Assembly: GCA_013416395.1 (NCBI GenBank)
Contig: JACCEP010000003.1
Location: 434,001 to 498,000, forward strand
Direction: 5' to 3'
Source of the DNA: Alcaligenaceae bacterium
Lineage (GTDB): Bacteria; Pseudomonadota; Gammaproteobacteria; Burkholderiales; Burkholderiaceae_B
Length of the DNA: 64,000 bases
Positions 4,749 through 15,123 of the stretch are shown in pieces. The stretch's first letter is position 1. Every line of letters starts with the position of its first letter. The translations under genes and the position numbers were made by a program. The notes under the pieces were generated by a model. The model saw only the letters and a list, made by a program, of their open reading frames with translations, did not search any database and was not told the origin of the DNA.

Positions 4749-6845
4749 ATGACGGCAGCAAATACCTCTAACCTCTCGCTTGAAGAAAACCGCGTATTGC
4801 GCGTTGATGACTTGAGCGTGCAGTTTAAGAGTGCAGAACGCACGCTGGACGCGGTAAAACATCTGTCTTTTCATGTAGACCGTGGCGAAACGCTGGCTAT
4901 CGTAGGCGAATCCGGTTCCGGCAAGTCAGTAACGTCGCTGGCACTGATGCGACTCGTCCATTACGGTGGCGGCCATCTGCTTGGCGGCACTATGCTGCTA
5001 TCCCGGCGAAATGGTCAGGTCATTAACCTGGCCACCGCAAATGGAGCTCAGCTGCGTTCCGTACGCGGTGCAGATATGGCGATGATTTTCCAGGAGCCCA
5101 TGACGTCGCTTAACCCCATATTTACGGTTGGAGACCAGATCGCCGAAACACTATGCCTGCATCAGGGCATGAGCATGCGCAAGGCCTTGGCCGAAGCCTT
5201 GCGCATGCTTGATCTGGTACGTATTCCCGATGCCAAAAACGTGCTTGGACGTTATCCCCATCAGTTGTCAGGTGGCATGCGACAACGCGTCATGATTGCC
5301 ATGGCACTGGCATGCAAGCCAGCGTTGCTGATTGCAGACGAGCCGACTACAGCCCTTGATGTCACGATACAGGCGCAGATACTTCAGTTAATCCGGGAGC
5401 TGCAGCGTGAGATGAACATGGGCGTCATCTTCATTACCCATGACATGGGCGTTGTTGCTGAAGTGGCGGATCGCGTACTGGTTATGCTGCGCGGCGACAA
5501 AGTTGAATCAGGCCCAGCTCAGCAGATTTTTGACCAACCCACCCATCCCTACACGCGCGCATTGCTGGCTGCGGTTCCACGACTGGGCTCCATGCGTGGC
5601 ACTGATGCTCCAGAGCATTTCCCGGTGCTGTCTGCGACAGCCAGTGACGCAGAAGCGGCAATCTATGCCACGGCACAACGCGACGAGTATGCAGCACGGC
5701 AGAAAAGTACAGGTTCAGGCGCAAGTACAGACGCAAGCACAGGTTCAGGTTCAGGTACCAACACAGGCACAGGTACGGGCACAGGCAGCAGTACCAACCT
5801 CGACACAAGCGCAGACACCAGCAGTACAGGCACGAGCAAACGTACGGGCACCAACGCAGACAGCGGCACCGACTTCATCCAGCCCAAAAGCATGGTGGAC
5901 CACATCAGCCCAGCCACAATGCAGCGAGGCGAGCCAATACTGCGGGTGCGCGAACTGTGTACACGATTTGATATACGTACTGGTATCTTCAGTCGTGTAA
6001 CGCGACGTGTGCATGCCGTCGAGAAAGTCAGTTTCGACCTGTACCCGGGAGAAACTCTTGCACTCGTGGGTGAGTCGGGTTGTGGCAAGTCAACAACCGG
6101 TCGATCCTTGCTAAGGCTGGTTGAAAGCCAGAGCGGAGAAATTGAGTTTCAGGGCCAGCAAATCGCTCAGATGCGAGGCCCAGCCTTGCAGACGTTGCGT
6201 CGAAACATACAGTTTATTTTTCAGGATCCCTTTGCCTCACTTGATCCACGCATGACCGTAGGTTTTTCAATTGTCGAACCATTACTTATTCATAAAGTGA
6301 TGTCGCCAAGCCAGGCCAGAGAACGTATGACATGGCTTCTGGATAAGGTCGGCCTGCCGCCCGACGCGGCACAACGCTATCCGCACGAATTTTCAGGCGG
6401 CCAGCGCCAGCGTATATGCATCGCCAGGGCGCTTTCGCTAAACCCCAAGGTCGTCATCGCAGACGAGTCGGTTTCCGCACTTGATGTTTCCATACAGGCC
6501 CAGATCGTGAACCTGCTCATGGATCTGCAGCGCGAAATGGGCATTGCCTTTCTTTTCATCTCGCACGACATGGCGGTGGTCGAGCGTATCAGCCATCGTG
6601 TTGCCGTAATGTACCTGGGCCAGATCGTTGAGATAGGACCCCGACGTTCAATATTTGAAAACCCGCAGCATCCATATACCAAGAAACTGATGGCAGCAGT
6701 GCCCATCGCGGACCCCTCGCGCCGTCACCTCGACCGGAAATTACTGGTCGGAGAAGTACCCAGCCCAATAAGAAGCGTTGGCGACGAACCCGTCGTACTG
6801 CCTTTGATAGAAGTAACGGCTGGTCATTATGTAGCACACCATTAA
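4749..6845 (+). CDS. gsiA: Peptide/glutathione ABC transporter, dual ATP-binding protein (GsiA-like)
   Basis: The 698-residue protein carries two complete ABC ATPase domains, as in E. coli GsiA. The N-terminal half has Walker A GESGSGKS (residues 53-60), signature LSGGMRQR and Walker [11 protein letters not shown]. The C-terminal half has GESGCGKS (about residue 440), FSGGQRQR and [10 protein letters not shown]. Each is followed by an oligopeptide-type C-terminal motif (HPYTRAL; HPYTKKL). It should power the gsiC/gsiD permease. The linker, about residues 320-375, is a low-complexity Ser/Thr/Gly tract encoded by hexamer repeats, absent from typical members. It lies 98 nt after iaaA, with a possible GGGCGGG/CCCGCCC stem between. 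Confidence 0.93.
5703..5850 (+). repeat. In-frame degenerate hexamer repeat within gsiA linker
   Basis: About 25 hexamers of the ACAGGT / ACAGGC / TCAGGT type lie head to tail, in phase with the reading frame, encoding alternating Thr/Ser and Gly. Copies at 5710-5800 are the most regular, and those after about 5810 are more diverged. Because the unit is six bases, gain or loss of copies would change linker length without shifting the frame. Confidence 0.8.
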
Positions 6846-9417: not shown

Positions 9418-10314
9418 ATGACACAAACCGCCTCCATAAGCCCTGCGTCCACTCAGTCTGACGCGCCTGTACGCACACCGATGCGGGAGTTCTGGCGTAA
9501 ATTCCGCAAGCAAAAGCTGGCAATGTGGGCAGGCGTATTCGTGCTGCTGCTGATATTGCTGGCCATTTTCGCACCCCTGATTACGCCCTACGACGCTGAA
9601 AACTATTTCGACTACGACTTTCTGAACAGCCCCCCTTCATGGTTGCACTGGATGGGTGTGGATTCGTTGGGGCGTGATATCTTCAGCCGGGTACTTATGG
9701 GTTCCCGTATATCGCTGGCAGCAGGCTTTGTATCGGTGGCGATGGGAGCGCTGGTTGGCACGGTTATGGGGTTGCTTGCTGGCTATTATGAAGGCTGGTG
9801 GGATCGTATCACCATGCGCATCTCAGACGTGCTGCTGGCTTTCCCAGGCATTCTTCTGGCGATCGGGGTTGTTGCGGTACTGGGCTCGAGCATGGTGAAC
9901 GTAATCATTGCCGTTGCCGTGTTCAGCGTACCGGCATTTGCACGACTCGTGCGCGGCAGTACCCTGGCGATCAAAAGCATGACCTATATCGAGGCTATGC
10001 GCAGCATAGGGGCCTCAGATGCGGTCATTATATTTCGCCATATTCTTCCAGGCACGATCTCGCCTATTGTGGTGTATGGCACCATGCGCATTGGCACCTC
10101 CATAATCACCGCTGCCAGCTTGTCATTTCTTGGCATGGGTGCGCAACCGCCAACGCCCGAATGGGGCGCCATGCTCAACGAAGCACGCTCCGACATGCTG
10201 CTGGCACCGCATGTGGCAATTTTTCCAGCACTGGCAATATTTTTAACAGTGCTCGCTTTTAATCTGTTGGGTGACGGTTTGCGTGATGCGCTGGATCCAA
10301 AAATAGATCGATGA
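9418..10314 (+). CDS. gsiD: Peptide/glutathione ABC transporter permease (GsiD-like)
   Basis: This 298-residue inner-membrane permease starts at ATG 9418. A polar N-terminus precedes [15 protein letters not shown], a typical OppC/DppC-type entry. The [11 protein letters not shown] motif, the EAA loop ([13 protein letters not shown]) and the terminal [15 protein letters not shown] are all present. It forms the heteromeric channel with gsiC. It is followed 12 nt later by the P1 peptidase, consistent with co-transcription. Confidence 0.93.
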
Positions 10315-10326
10315 CCGTATCCCCTT

Positions 10327-11406
10327 ATGACAAATAGCAATTACTTTGAAGCGCCTCGAGTCGGACGTTTACCTTTCGGCAAGCGCAATAGCATAAGCGA
10401 CGTACAAGGTGTAACCGTCGGCCATGCTACGCTCTGTGACGGCAATATCCAGACTGGCGTTACCGTCATTCGTCCCCACGACGATGATCTCTTTCTGCAG
10501 AAAACCCCCGCTGCAGCATGCATTATCAATGGCTTTGGCAAAAGCATTGGATTAATACAGGTACATGAACTGGGTGTCGTCGAAACGCCAATTGCGCTAA
10601 CCAACACGTTTTCGGTTGGCCAGATTGCTACGGCCCAACTGCGTCAGGCCATCGCGCAGCATCCGCAGATTGGCCGCGAATGGCCTACGGTCAACCCGCT
10701 GGTGCTCGAATGCAATGATGGCTATCTAAACGATATACAGGCATTTTCTGTCAACGAAGCGCACTATCATGAAGCCTGTCAGCACACGACGCCAGACTTC
10801 CAACAAGGGGCCGTAGGTGCTGGCCGCGGTATGTCAAGTTTTCACCTCAAGGGCGGAATTGGTTCAGCCTCCCGCATTGCAGCGTGTACAGATGGCCAGT
10901 ACACCGTAGGTGCGCTGGTTCTTGCCAATTTTGGCAGACTCACCAATCTGACAGTAGCTGGGCAGTCATTGGGCGCCGAACTGGCGGCCAAGCTATTCTC
11001 AAATGCGCCAGAGGATTTATTAGAGCAAGACAAGGGCTCCATTATCATCTTGCTGGCAACAGACGCACCGCTGGACACGCGCCAGCTTGGTCGGGTGTCC
11101 AAACGTGCAGCCGCTGGCCTTGCGCGCACAGGCTCCGTCTATGGGCATGGCAGCGGTGACATCGCACTGGCTTTTAGTAACGCATATCGCATCCCTGCCC
11201 TGGCTTCCCAACCTATGCCCACGCTCGCCATGCTGCATGAAACTGAGCTTGATGCTTTGTTTGAAGCCACTGCCGAAGCAACAGAACAGGCGATTGTTAA
11301 TGCGCTGTGGTCTGCCGCCACAGTAACAGGCCGGGACGGGCACCGACGCAGAGCGATCACTGAGCTGTTGCCGAACTGGCGCGAACACCTCGCTGTAAAA
11401 CCATGA
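10327..11406 (+). CDS. P1-family N-terminal nucleophile aminopeptidase (DmpA/BapA-like)
   Basis: The 359-residue protein belongs to MEROPS family P1, which includes L-aminopeptidase/D-esterase DmpA and the beta-peptidyl aminopeptidases. Family landmarks are ISDVQGVTVGHATL near the N-terminus, VGAGRGM, and KGSIIILLATDAPL. Self-cleavage is expected between Gly237 and Ser238, leaving a beta chain of about 122 residues with Ser238 as nucleophile, in line with DmpA and BapA. These enzymes release N-terminal residues, and some members accept D-amino acid amides or beta-amino acids. Its place after the transporter suggests it processes imported peptides in the cytoplasm. It has no signal peptide. 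Confidence 0.88.
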   Translation: MTNSNYFEAPRVGRLPFGKRNSISDVQGVTVGHATLCDGNIQTGVTVIRPHDDDLFLQKTPAAACIINGFGKSIGLIQVHELGVVETPIALTNTFSVGQIATAQLRQAIAQHPQIGREWPTVNPLVLECNDGYLNDIQAFSVNEAHYHEACQHTTPDFQQGAVGAGRGMSSFHLKGGIGSASRIAACTDGQYTVGALVLANFGRLTNLTVAGQSLGAELAAKLFSNAPEDLLEQDKGSIIILLATDAPLDTRQLGRVSKRAAAGLARTGSVYGHGSGDIALAFSNAYRIPALASQPMPTLAMLHETELDALFEATAEATEQAIVNALWSAATVTGRDGHRRRAITELLPNWREHLAVKP

Positions 11407-11422
11407 GTACATTCTTCTGCAT

Positions 11423-11520
11423 AAGCGATAAGCCATAGGCCACGGGCCATTAGTCAAAAGCCAAAAGCTACAAGCTACAAGCTATAGGCTATAAGCCATG
11501 AGCCATGAGCCATAAGTCTG
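11423..11520. repeat. Degenerate heptamer tandem repeat, 14 units
   Basis: Fourteen consecutive 7-bp units stay in perfect register through the gap between the P1 peptidase and the D-aminopeptidase gene. The consensus is about RAGCYAT; examples are AAGCTAC twice at 11465-11478 and GAGCCAT twice at 11500-11513. No open frame or regulatory motif explains it. It begins 16 nt after the upstream stop codon and ends 84 nt before the next start. Confidence 0.85.
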
Positions 11521-11604
11521 GCTTACGGCCCCGGTTCACCACGACCGAATTTCATCAAGCACTTACGCCTTGCATCCTATTTCCATCATTTCTTGAAGCC
11601 AACT

Positions 11605-12426
11605 ATGAAAATCCTTGTTTCTGTCGATATTGAAGGTATTGCAGGCGTTACGCATGCTGAGCAAGTGCGCAGCGGCAACCCTGAATACGAACGGGCCCGC
11701 AGGTGGATGACGGCTGAAGCCGACGCCGCTATACGGGGGGCATTTGATGGCGGTGCCACAGAAGTGTTCGTTAATGACTCACACGGGGGCTTTCGCAACC
11801 TGTTGCTCGATCACATGGACGAACGCGTGCAGAGTATTACCGGCAAGCCGCGCTACCTGGGCATGATGTCAGGCCTGGAGCAAAATTGTGATGCGGTATT
11901 TCTAATCGGGTACCACTCTGGAGCTGGCACGCGCGGCGTGCTGGCGCATACCATCAATAGTTTCGCGTTCAGGCGGGTCGTCGTAAACGGTATCGAGCTC
12001 AATGAGGCGGGGCTTTATGGTGCGCTGGCAGGTGAAATGGGCGTGCCTGTTGCGCTTATGACGGGCGATGATGTGTTCATCACCGAAACACAACAACATT
12101 TTCCGGGCGCTTTGGCGGTGCAGACCAAACAGGCCCACGGGCACGCCAGCTGTATATCGCTTTCGCCAGCGCATGCCAGCAGCTTGATACGCAAGGCAGC
12201 CACCGAGGCGGTGTCGTTGGTTTCATCTCTGCACCCCTACCGTTTGCCCGGCGATACTTTCAGCTGCGAACTCACTACGCAAACCAGCGGGCAAGCCGAT
12301 TTGTTTTGCCAGTTGCCCATGCTGATACGACTCGATGCAACCTCTTTATCTTTTCAGGCCAACAGTATGGAACACATCATACGCATGTTGAACAGCCTGT
12401 CTGCCATGTCTTTCATGCTGCGATAA
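11605..12426 (+). CDS. dppA: M55-family D-aminopeptidase (DppA-like)
   Basis: This 273-residue zinc peptidase starts at ATG 11605; TTG at 11593 is in frame but poorer. Asp8 and Glu10 (VSVDIEG), His60, His104 and Glu134 match the metal ligands known from Bacillus subtilis DppA, and His115 matches its catalytic histidine. DppA forms a decamer and cleaves D-Ala-D-Ala and related D-residue peptides in the cytoplasm. It ends the peptide cluster, suggesting that the imported peptides include D-residues, for example from cell-wall turnover. No clear intrinsic terminator follows it. Confidence 0.9.
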   Translation: MKILVSVDIEGIAGVTHAEQVRSGNPEYERARRWMTAEADAAIRGAFDGGATEVFVNDSHGGFRNLLLDHMDERVQSITGKPRYLGMMSGLEQNCDAVFLIGYHSGAGTRGVLAHTINSFAFRRVVVNGIELNEAGLYGALAGEMGVPVALMTGDDVFITETQQHFPGALAVQTKQAHGHASCISLSPAHASSLIRKAATEAVSLVSSLHPYRLPGDTFSCELTTQTSGQADLFCQLPMLIRLDATSLSFQANSMEHIIRMLNSLSAMSFMLR

Positions 12427-12630
12427 GGTTCAATTTACAGCGCACACTTACAAACACCATCCGAGCACACTGTAAAGCTAAGCTACAGAGCAAGCTTTCA
12501 GGCACCGCCGTGAGCACATTGTTTCCCTGAGCAGATAAAACATCTGCGGCTGTCGGAATAGGTCGTTTGTATACCGACGCGAGCTGATGCCGCTTGTGCG
12601 TGCCCCATCATCTCACGCAACACTTATCCA
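12427..12630. other. Intergenic region between convergent dppA and ppsA
   Basis: I see no gene here. The only structure noted is a short stem GCAGAT-N5-ATCTGC at 12531-12547 without a T tract on either strand. It may act as a weak end for the plus-strand cluster. Confidence 0.4.
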
Positions 12631-12676
12631 TAAAAAACACCCCAAACACTGAAAGAGAAATCCAGGGTTTGGGGTG
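12631..12676 (-). terminator. Intrinsic terminator of ppsA
   Basis: Arms CACCCCAAAC / GTTTGGGGTG form a perfect 10-bp stem with a 19-nt loop. On the minus strand it is followed by six T. It lies about 80 nt after the ppsA stop codon. On the plus strand no T run follows, so it serves ppsA only. Confidence 0.85.
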
Positions 12677-12753
12677 CGTTGTACCAGGCGCAGCCCTGTG
12701 TAATCAGCCAGCAGAGCGATACTCGAAAGAATATCGCCTTTACACCTGCCCGC

Positions 12754-15123
12754 TTACTTGGCGATAGCCAGGCGCTGCCATGTATCAACCACGGTATCGG
12801 GGTTGAGCGACATGGACAAAATGCCTTCGTCACGCAACCAATCAGCCAGATCAGGGTGATCGCTGGGGCCCTGACCGCAGATACCGACATACTTGCCCGC
12901 CTTGAGGCAGGCCTGTATGGCACGACGCAACATAAACTGCACAGCCGCATCACGCTCGTCAAAATCGGCAGCCAGCAGCTCCATGCCTGAGTCACGGTCA
13001 AGCCCCAGGGTAAGCTGAGTCATGTCGTTCGAGCCTATAGAGAATCCGTCGAAATACTCAAGAAACTCCTCAGCAAGAATGGCGTTGGATGGAACCTCGC
13101 ACATCATGATGACGCGCAGCCCATTTTCACCTCGAGCCAGGCCGTTTTTAGCCAGTAAGTCGATCACTTTGGCGGCCTGTGGCAAGGTGCGTACAAACGG
13201 CACCATGATCTCGACGTTGGTAAGCCCCATTTCGTCGCGCACCTTCTTGAGCGCTTCACATTCCATGCGGAAGCACTCTTCGAACTCTTCGGAGACGTAA
13301 CGCGACGCGCCACGGAAGCCCAGCATGGGGTTCTCTTCTTCAGGCTCGTAACGAGAACCACCTACCAGCTTGCGGTATTCGTTAGATTTAAAATCAGACA
13401 GACGCACGATGACGGGCTTGGGGTAAAACGCCGCTGCCAGGGTACTTATGCCTTCGGCCAATTTCTCTACAAAAAAGGCACGCGGGCTGGCGTAACCACG
13501 GGCAGCAGACTCGACAGCCAGCTTAAGCTCGCCATCAACATTTGGGTAGTCGAGCACAGCTTTGGGGTGCACGGCAATGTTGTTATTAATGATGAACTCA
13601 AGTCGGGCCAGACCGACGCCGTCATTGGGAATTTGCGAGAAATCAAAGGCCAGTTGTGGATTGCCCACGTTCATCATGATCTTGAGGCCGATTTCGGGCA
13701 TTTGCCCCCATTTGACCTCTTCGATTTCGGTTTCGATCAGGCCATCATAGATTCGACCTTCATCGCCTTCGGCGCAGGAAACCGTAACTTCAAGCCCATT
13801 GCCCAGCACGTCGGTAGCATGCGCGCAGCCCACAACCGCCGGAATGCCCAACTCACGCGCAATAATTGCGGCGTGGCAGGTGCGGCCCCCACGATTGGTA
13901 ACAATGGCAGATGCCAGCTTCATGACGGGTTCCCAGTTAGGGTCTGTCATGTCGGTAACAAGAATATCGCCGGCCTTAACCTTATGCATTTCAGAAACGT
14001 CAGCCACCACACGCACACGACCCGAGCCGATTTTTTGGCCAATGGCGCGCCCGGTAATCAGCACGTCGCCAGTCGCTTTCAAGCGATAGCGTTCTTGCAC
14101 GTCATTGTGCGAAGTTTGTGACTTAACGGTTTCAGGACGTGCCTGAAGGATGTAGATTTTTCCGTCTATGCCATCGCGGCCCCACTCAATGTCCATGGGA
14201 CGCTGATAATGGTCTTCAATAATGACGGCATAACGGGCAAGCTCGATGACCTCTTCGTCAGTCAGTGAGTAACGATTGCGCTCCGAAACAGGCACGTCAA
14301 TAATACGTACGGCCTCACCGGAAACACGTTCAGCGTCAAATTCCATTTTAAGCAGCTTGGAACCAATGCGGCGGCTGATGATGGGGTAATGGCCTGACTT
14401 TAATGTAGGCTTGAAAACGTAAAATTCATCAGGGTTGACGGCGCCTTGGACGACGGTTTCGCCCAAGCCATACGACGAGGTAATGAACACCACGTCTTTA
14501 AAGCCTGATTCAGTGTCGAGCGTAAACATAACGCCGGCGCTACCGCAGTCGGAACGCACCATGCGCTGAATGCCAGCCGACAAGGCTACCTCAGCGTGCG
14601 CATAACCCCGGTGCACGCGGTATGAAATAGCGCGATCGTTGTACAACGACGCAAACACGTGCTTGATCTTGTCAAGCACGTCGTCGATGCCAACCACGTT
14701 AAGAAACGTTTCTTGTTGGCCAGCAAATGACGCATCAGGAAGGTCTTCAGCGGTTGCCGATGAACGCACGGCAAAGCTGCCCTTGCCGTCGGCGTCGAGC
14801 TCGGCGAACGCAGTGCGGATCGCTTGCTCGAAGTCGGCGTGAAAGGGCGTATCAACAATCCATTGGCGAATTTCAGACCCGGCACTCGCCAGCTCGCGCA
14901 CATCGTCAGAGTCGAGTGTGCTAAGCCTATCGGCAATGCGTTGATCCAGACCGGTTGACTTTAAAAAGTCGCGAAAGGCGTCGGCGGTAGTTGCAAACCC
15001 GCCTGGCACTCTGACACCGGCTTCAGCCAGTTGGCTGATCATCTCACCTAGTGATGCGTTTTTACCTCCTACCGAGTCGACATCCGTCATGCGGAGTTGC
15101 TCGAAAGACGCTACATAAGACAT
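12754..15123 (-). CDS. ppsA: Phosphoenolpyruvate synthase
   Basis: The 789-residue enzyme converts pyruvate plus ATP to PEP, AMP and phosphate, a gluconeogenic step. The N-terminal ATP-binding domain ([31 protein letters not shown]), the phosphohistidine domain (GGRTCHAAI, His417) and the C-terminal PEP/pyruvate barrel ([23 protein letters not shown]) are complete and in the usual order. Thr415, two residues before the catalytic His, corresponds to the threonine that the PpsR protein phosphorylates in E. coli. It is divergent from ppsR. ATG 15123 follows an AGGTGA ribosome site. Confidence 0.97.

Follow-up and report, generated by a model that had tools for sequence, protein, structure and literature searches.

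The 98-bp tract at positions 11423-11520 of the window, by which we mean the whole 64,000-nucleotide stretch of Alcaligenaceae DNA analysed here, is a degenerate heptanucleotide tandem repeat in the gap between two peptidase genes (Table 1), and it adds a new, worn example to the heptanucleotide simple sequence repeats, a class already known. The explanation that we consider very probable is that it is an ordinary long simple sequence repeat, born by slippage, since decayed, and tolerated as a spacer rather than acting as a control element. The gene pair lies downstream of a family 5 solute-binding protein gene and two permease genes, all on the plus strand. The identity of the M55 gene was tested here to the level of the Pfam family, dppA being the name given to it in the initial annotation, and its start, the ATG at 11605, was placed by comparison with congeners.

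Table 1. Coordinates of the array, the gap that holds it and the adjoining genes in the window
Feature	Position	Strand	Basis
Upstream gene, Peptidase_S58 family, 359 aa	10327..11406	+	ORF; Pfam PF03576, E 5.5e-114
Intercistronic gap, 198 bp, contains the array	11407..11604	+	flanking gene ends
First thirteen degenerate heptamers near RAGCYAT, no indel, fifth worn	11423..11513	+	unit layout, TRF
Fourteenth, worn unit AAGTCTG, 4/7	11514..11520	+	unit layout
Downstream gene, Peptidase_M55 (D-aminopeptidase)	11605..12426	+	Pfam PF04951, E 6.1e-95

Laid out from 11423, the tract falls into 14 in-phase heptamers with no indel, namely AAGCGAT, AAGCCAT, AGGCCAC, GGGCCAT, TAGTCAA, AAGCCAA and AAGCTAC (units 1-7), followed by AAGCTAC, AAGCTAT, AGGCTAT, AAGCCAT, GAGCCAT, GAGCCAT and AAGTCTG (units 8-14). 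TRF placed the array at 11420-11516 with period 7, 13.9 copies, 77% matches, 0% indels and a score of 68, which confirms the fourteen units without a phase break that had first been described. Twelve of the 14 units agree with RAGCYAT at five or more of the seven positions, the fifth and the last being worn to 4/7, and none of the four units tried beyond the array on each side exceeds 3/7. The consensus is AAGCCAT with 79% identity, from which the array departs by 21 substitutions, 15 transitions and 6 transversions; zero indels over 98 bp with that many substitutions may be more regular than plain decay leaves. Over ten units, the array carries 1.39 bits of period-7 information per column; the highest values reached were 0.77 in 150 simulated second-order Markov windows of the same size as the window and 0.79 in mononucleotide shuffles (one per source from this genome), and the array is thus far above chance. 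Seeding of the array by the stop-codon context of the upstream gene was considered and rejected, as the two are out of phase (compared by hand).

The array is not a coding repeat, since it lies in the intercistronic gap and has stop codons in all three plus-strand frames. It is not a REP element or structured RNA either: Rfam gave no match up to E 1 in 10000-13000, and a search for inverted repeats in 11300-11700 found one pair only, of 12 nt and 83%, at 11487-11530. A CRISPR array is excluded by units that abut without spacers, and a G-quadruplex heptamer repeat was rejected because a GGG run occurs in 1 of the 14 units only. The first three of these exclusions had been made in the initial annotation and stand. 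The tract has the features of a heptanucleotide long simple sequence repeat, with head-to-tail 7-bp units running longer than chance, a non-coding position between genes, and a sporadic, lineage-specific presence (1/20 family genomes with the gene pair).

This last figure comes from a comparison of the same gap in relatives, for which 61 genomes of the family were sampled, our own included, with an M55 cutoff of E 1e-40. The M55 gene was found in 19 of the 61 and the S58 gene lay just upstream of it in 19/19; a further congener, G001, was added with its two loci counted once, which gave 20 family genomes with the pair. Within the genus, a DNA search with the pair matched four of five genomes, our own included, and the pair gave no DNA match in the fifth, congener G002. 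At 198 bp, the gap here is wider than in any of the 19 other family genomes, where it ranges from -4 to 124 bp, in agreement with the earlier description of an otherwise compact operon. The two genes overlap by four bases in 6/20 family genomes, and among the congeners with the pair, G001 and G003 show this overlap (ATGA) and G004 has a gap of 48 bp. The array was absent from 19 of the 20 gaps, whose sequences were inspected by eye, and because it is absent from the same gap in the 19 other family genomes examined, it most likely arose at this gap in this lineage. The operon persists without the array in the relatives examined.

The location does invite a regulatory explanation, namely that the array is a copy-number-variable spacer whose heptamer number tunes M55 translation or mRNA stability by phase variation. 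Within a compact operon, the array keeps apart two co-directional genes that overlap by ATGA in two of the three congeners with the pair, and tandem repeats in general can change copy number. However, the units have diverged to 79% identity, and imperfect arrays slip less than perfect ones. Moreover, 19/20 of the family genomes examined with the pair do without the array, a scan of 11300-11700 showed neither promoter-like nor terminator-like sites, and the adjoining gene is a peptidase of a transport operon rather than a surface antigen. The RNA of the gap folds slightly better than shuffles on the plus strand (z -1.85, 10/200 shuffles as good) and no better on the minus strand (z 0.35). We therefore regard a regulatory spacer as improbable, and the regulatory roles initially proposed, tuning of dppA among them, are unsupported, given the lack of promoter or terminator matches, a plus-strand fold that is only slightly better than shuffles, and the presence of the array in 1/20 family genomes with the pair.

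The widened gap could also be explained by a small mobile element that inserted at the ATGA overlap and carried the array as cargo. A 4-bp target duplication would account for the ATGA seen at each end of the 198-bp segment, but ATG and TGA are required there anyway by the two genes, the sole inverted pair in 11300-11700 lies inside the segment and not at its ends, and 11400-11540 has no second copy in this genome. A mobile element is thus hardly likely at all.

It had been proposed that one length in all isolates, together with a lack of other arrays in the genome, would make the tract a chance relic; on the second point, further arrays do exist in this genome. RAGCYAT-type units occur at two more places in its 5.08 Mb, on contigs C11 (about 204860) and C33 (about 579800), and the three places adjoin different genes, as judged by sight. 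The C33 array (L013:1450-1620; C33 about 579757-579930) consists of about 19 very degenerate heptamers, NNGCYAT on the minus strand, with one 1-nt insertion (units counted by eye), and occupies a divergent gap whose flanking genes, named from their translations by sight, are aldehyde-dehydrogenase-like and LysR-like. A profile model of the array, partly built from these three known places, found no further place at E <0.01 among the 150 of 1264 first-look candidates scored, and in a 464-kb sample of the genome (the window plus 20 stretches) the window array was its single match. In a first period scan of this sample at a threshold of 72%, period 7 gave two arrays (that of the window and one of a different unit), period 14 one, period 5 one, period 6 three and period 12 two, and periods 4, 8-11 and 13 gave none. 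An information-based scan for periods 5, 7, 8, 10, 11 and 13, which covered the same sample plus the stretches L003 and L013, gave four places at period 7, which include the period-14 array and L013, a single array at period 8, and three stretches at period 5, of which one is a GCTTG repeat. Across 385 kb sampled from 20 further genomes of the phylum, there were no period-7 arrays at the 72% threshold, and the information-based scan found one A+T-rich period-7 stretch and two period-5 stretches.

Several arrays of other units were seen along the way. On C11 they are a degenerate heptamer array of a GCCYTGW-type unit between co-directional ORFs (L177:3073-3161), a short GCTTG pentamer tandem repeat (L177:7079-7115), and a period-14 array of A-rich units (GAAGAATACAGACA; L184:18969-19105). 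On C33, a period-8 array (L170:19330-19450) alternates units near AGTACTCA and AGTTAACA, which amounts to a 16-bp super-unit.

In the genus, congener G002 has one array of the RAGCYAT-type unit, next to what look like other genes, judging from their translations by sight. The units of this array (L146:1495-1600, contig C51) change along its length from RAGCYAT-like through GAACTGC to CCGACCA-like, as read by eye. In congener G003, two adjacent weak profile matches (C19:422926-422991; L235 and L238; E 0.17 and 0.58) may be a worn array. Across the family, a 3-unit pattern with at most two mismatches hit 20/200 genomes versus 12/200 for the reversed control, and most single hits may be chance; overlapping hits occurred only in genomes G000, G002 and G053.

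The unit is not confined to this family. The exact four-unit RAGCYAT pattern occurs in at least 118 stretches of a species-representative collection, and the phyla among the matches listed, taken from record titles, include cyanobacteria, gamma- and deltaproteobacteria, Bacteroidetes, Planctomycetes, Chloroflexi, actinobacteria, Nitrospirae and candidate phyla. Many of the 118 matches listed are from metagenome-assembled genomes, and 25 come from a genome already present. In 90 of these 118, the four matched units do not differ from one another, where 3.7 would be expected if the two free positions of RAGCYAT varied independently, and the Y position alternates in four more; such uniform or alternating units are what slippage or unequal exchange would leave. 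A transition-biased origin was rejected, because the 15 transitions versus 6 transversions of our own array are met by 153 versus 130 at the five unconstrained positions of 492 units flanking the 118 matches listed. Exact arrays of the unit are nevertheless rare and sporadic in the phylum: an exact 24-base stretch was found in 2/299 genomes (0/299 for the reversed control), a count that misses our own array, which is too degenerate for the exact pattern. In viral contigs, the RAGCYAT unit occurs in 13 stretches against 2, 1, 0 and 9 for four rearranged units, which suggests a weak preference for it, with one control close. Matches in four phage records (E about 7) were dismissed as chance. Six 14-base doublets of the unit were tried against the literature, and the texts within reach held a single occurrence, in an amylase expression study.

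The gene context of the 118 matches listed was called with a simple purpose-made ORF caller. Among them, 79 have a called gene on either side, and the gap is convergent for 30 of these, co-directional for 39 (23 sense, 16 antisense) and divergent for 10; a further 19 lie inside a called ORF, some of these ORFs perhaps being spurious, and 20 lack a gene on one side. When gaps of 60-1000 bp are considered, 29/73 of the matches listed are convergent, versus a 16% share of background gap length (p ~1e-6; Fisher p 5e-5 by gap counts), 10/73 are divergent versus a 27% length share (p 0.01), and the co-directional ones are 20 sense and 14 antisense (n=34, p 0.39). With a stricter ORF caller, the convergent share of the matches listed is 26/70 (p ~2e-5; Fisher 5e-4). 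When each genome contributed a single array (93 of the 118 matches listed, the other 25 being set aside), the result was 24/61 convergent versus 15% (p ~2e-6), 8/61 divergent versus 29% (p 0.007), and 17 sense versus 12 antisense (p 0.46). The excess in convergent gaps fits either a sequence that is tolerated away from promoters or a role at 3' ends. The lack of strand preference among co-directional arrays disfavours a general role at the mRNA level, and the absence of a sense/antisense bias among the matches listed likewise leaves the regulatory proposals of the initial annotation without backing.

These distributions also bear on whether the tract is a DNA- or RNA-binding array in which each heptamer is a putative protein site. 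Direct heptamer repeats do serve as protein sites for some regulators. The best-kept positions of our array are 3 (14/14), 6 (13/14) and 4 (12/14), and the unit family is found at three places of this genome and in many phyla, all of which would suit such sites. Against this, the search of the 5.08-Mb genome turned up only three places, whose neighbouring genes differ to the eye; none of the three congeners with the gene pair shares the place in the window; and the matches listed show no strand preference and are depleted from divergent gaps. A binding array is thus very unlikely.

In comparison with what has been published, the array is less unusual than its first description suggested. Heptanucleotide repeats are described as the most frequent kind of long simple repeat in most prokaryote genomes, and polymerase slippage has been proposed as their cause (PMC4679880, PMC4692102), the former source citing a 2007 survey of prokaryotes by Mrazek et al. 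The statement that heptameric repeats are uncommon in proteobacteria is not supported, given the over-representation of heptamers in many bacterial genomes (PMC4692102; survey cited in PMC4679880), and the above 24-base count in 2/299 genomes is in line with sporadic presence. A further source describes 4-11 bp repeats as normally or weakly over-represented (PMC4060949), and heptamer terms had no match in a B. pseudomallei tandem-repeat paper (PMC1853098) and a 2025 survey (PMC12699852). Our array shares with heptanucleotide long simple sequence repeats, as they are described in PMC4679880 and PMC4692102, the 7-bp tandem unit, the intergenic position, the sporadic presence and slippage as the proposed origin, but its units have diverged, and a perfect-repeat search would miss most of it. 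The TAACTGA direct repeats of Beggiatoaceae, Cyanobacteria and some Bacteroidetes, as presented in PMC4679880, are likewise intergenic heptamers with one unit in distant phyla, and both they and our array have stop codons in the forward reading. However, a single genome has 169 sets of them, many of which closely precede start codons (PMC4679880), whereas our array has a different unit, found at three places in its genome. The GGGAATC and GGGGA(T/C)T repeats of Xanthomonas and Nostoc, as described in PMC4692102, are also degenerate intergenic heptamers that vary between related species, but they are G-rich and can form quadruplexes, whereas 1/14 units here contains GGG.

If the array was born by slippage, a short piece of the gap sequence would have expanded in 7-bp steps by slipped-strand mispairing, or by unequal recombination, most likely after the species split from its sequenced congeners. 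The array would then no longer have been homogenised, would have decayed by point mutation, and would now act as a tolerated spacer. A likely side effect is that the M55 start is no longer directly coupled to the S58 stop, because 198 bp now lie between two genes that share an ATGA overlap in two of the three congeners with the pair. We infer the origin, the direction and date of the change, its neutrality and the loss of coupling from the comparison of sequences. Slippage alone would not explain a preferred unit, and the counts in viral contigs hint that the unit may not be random; the excess in convergent gaps and the slightly better plus-strand fold are further points against this reading. 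A different reading, to which we give a small chance, is that something in replication, repair or 3'-end function prefers RAGCYAT and its close variants, and that tandem arrays of this favoured heptamer therefore form repeatedly across bacterial phyla at the 3' side of genes; the array described here would then be one worn example.

For this genome, the array is of little import, as it is probably a lineage-specific repeat that widens a conserved, often overlapping gene pair. The occurrence of one heptamer in unrelated phyla, together with its excess in convergent gaps, bears on the wider question of why 7-bp repeats, and perhaps certain units, form in bacteria. Elsewhere in the window, positions 5705-5798 hold overlapping short tandem repeats with periods of 6, 12, 18 and 30, perhaps a coding repeat.
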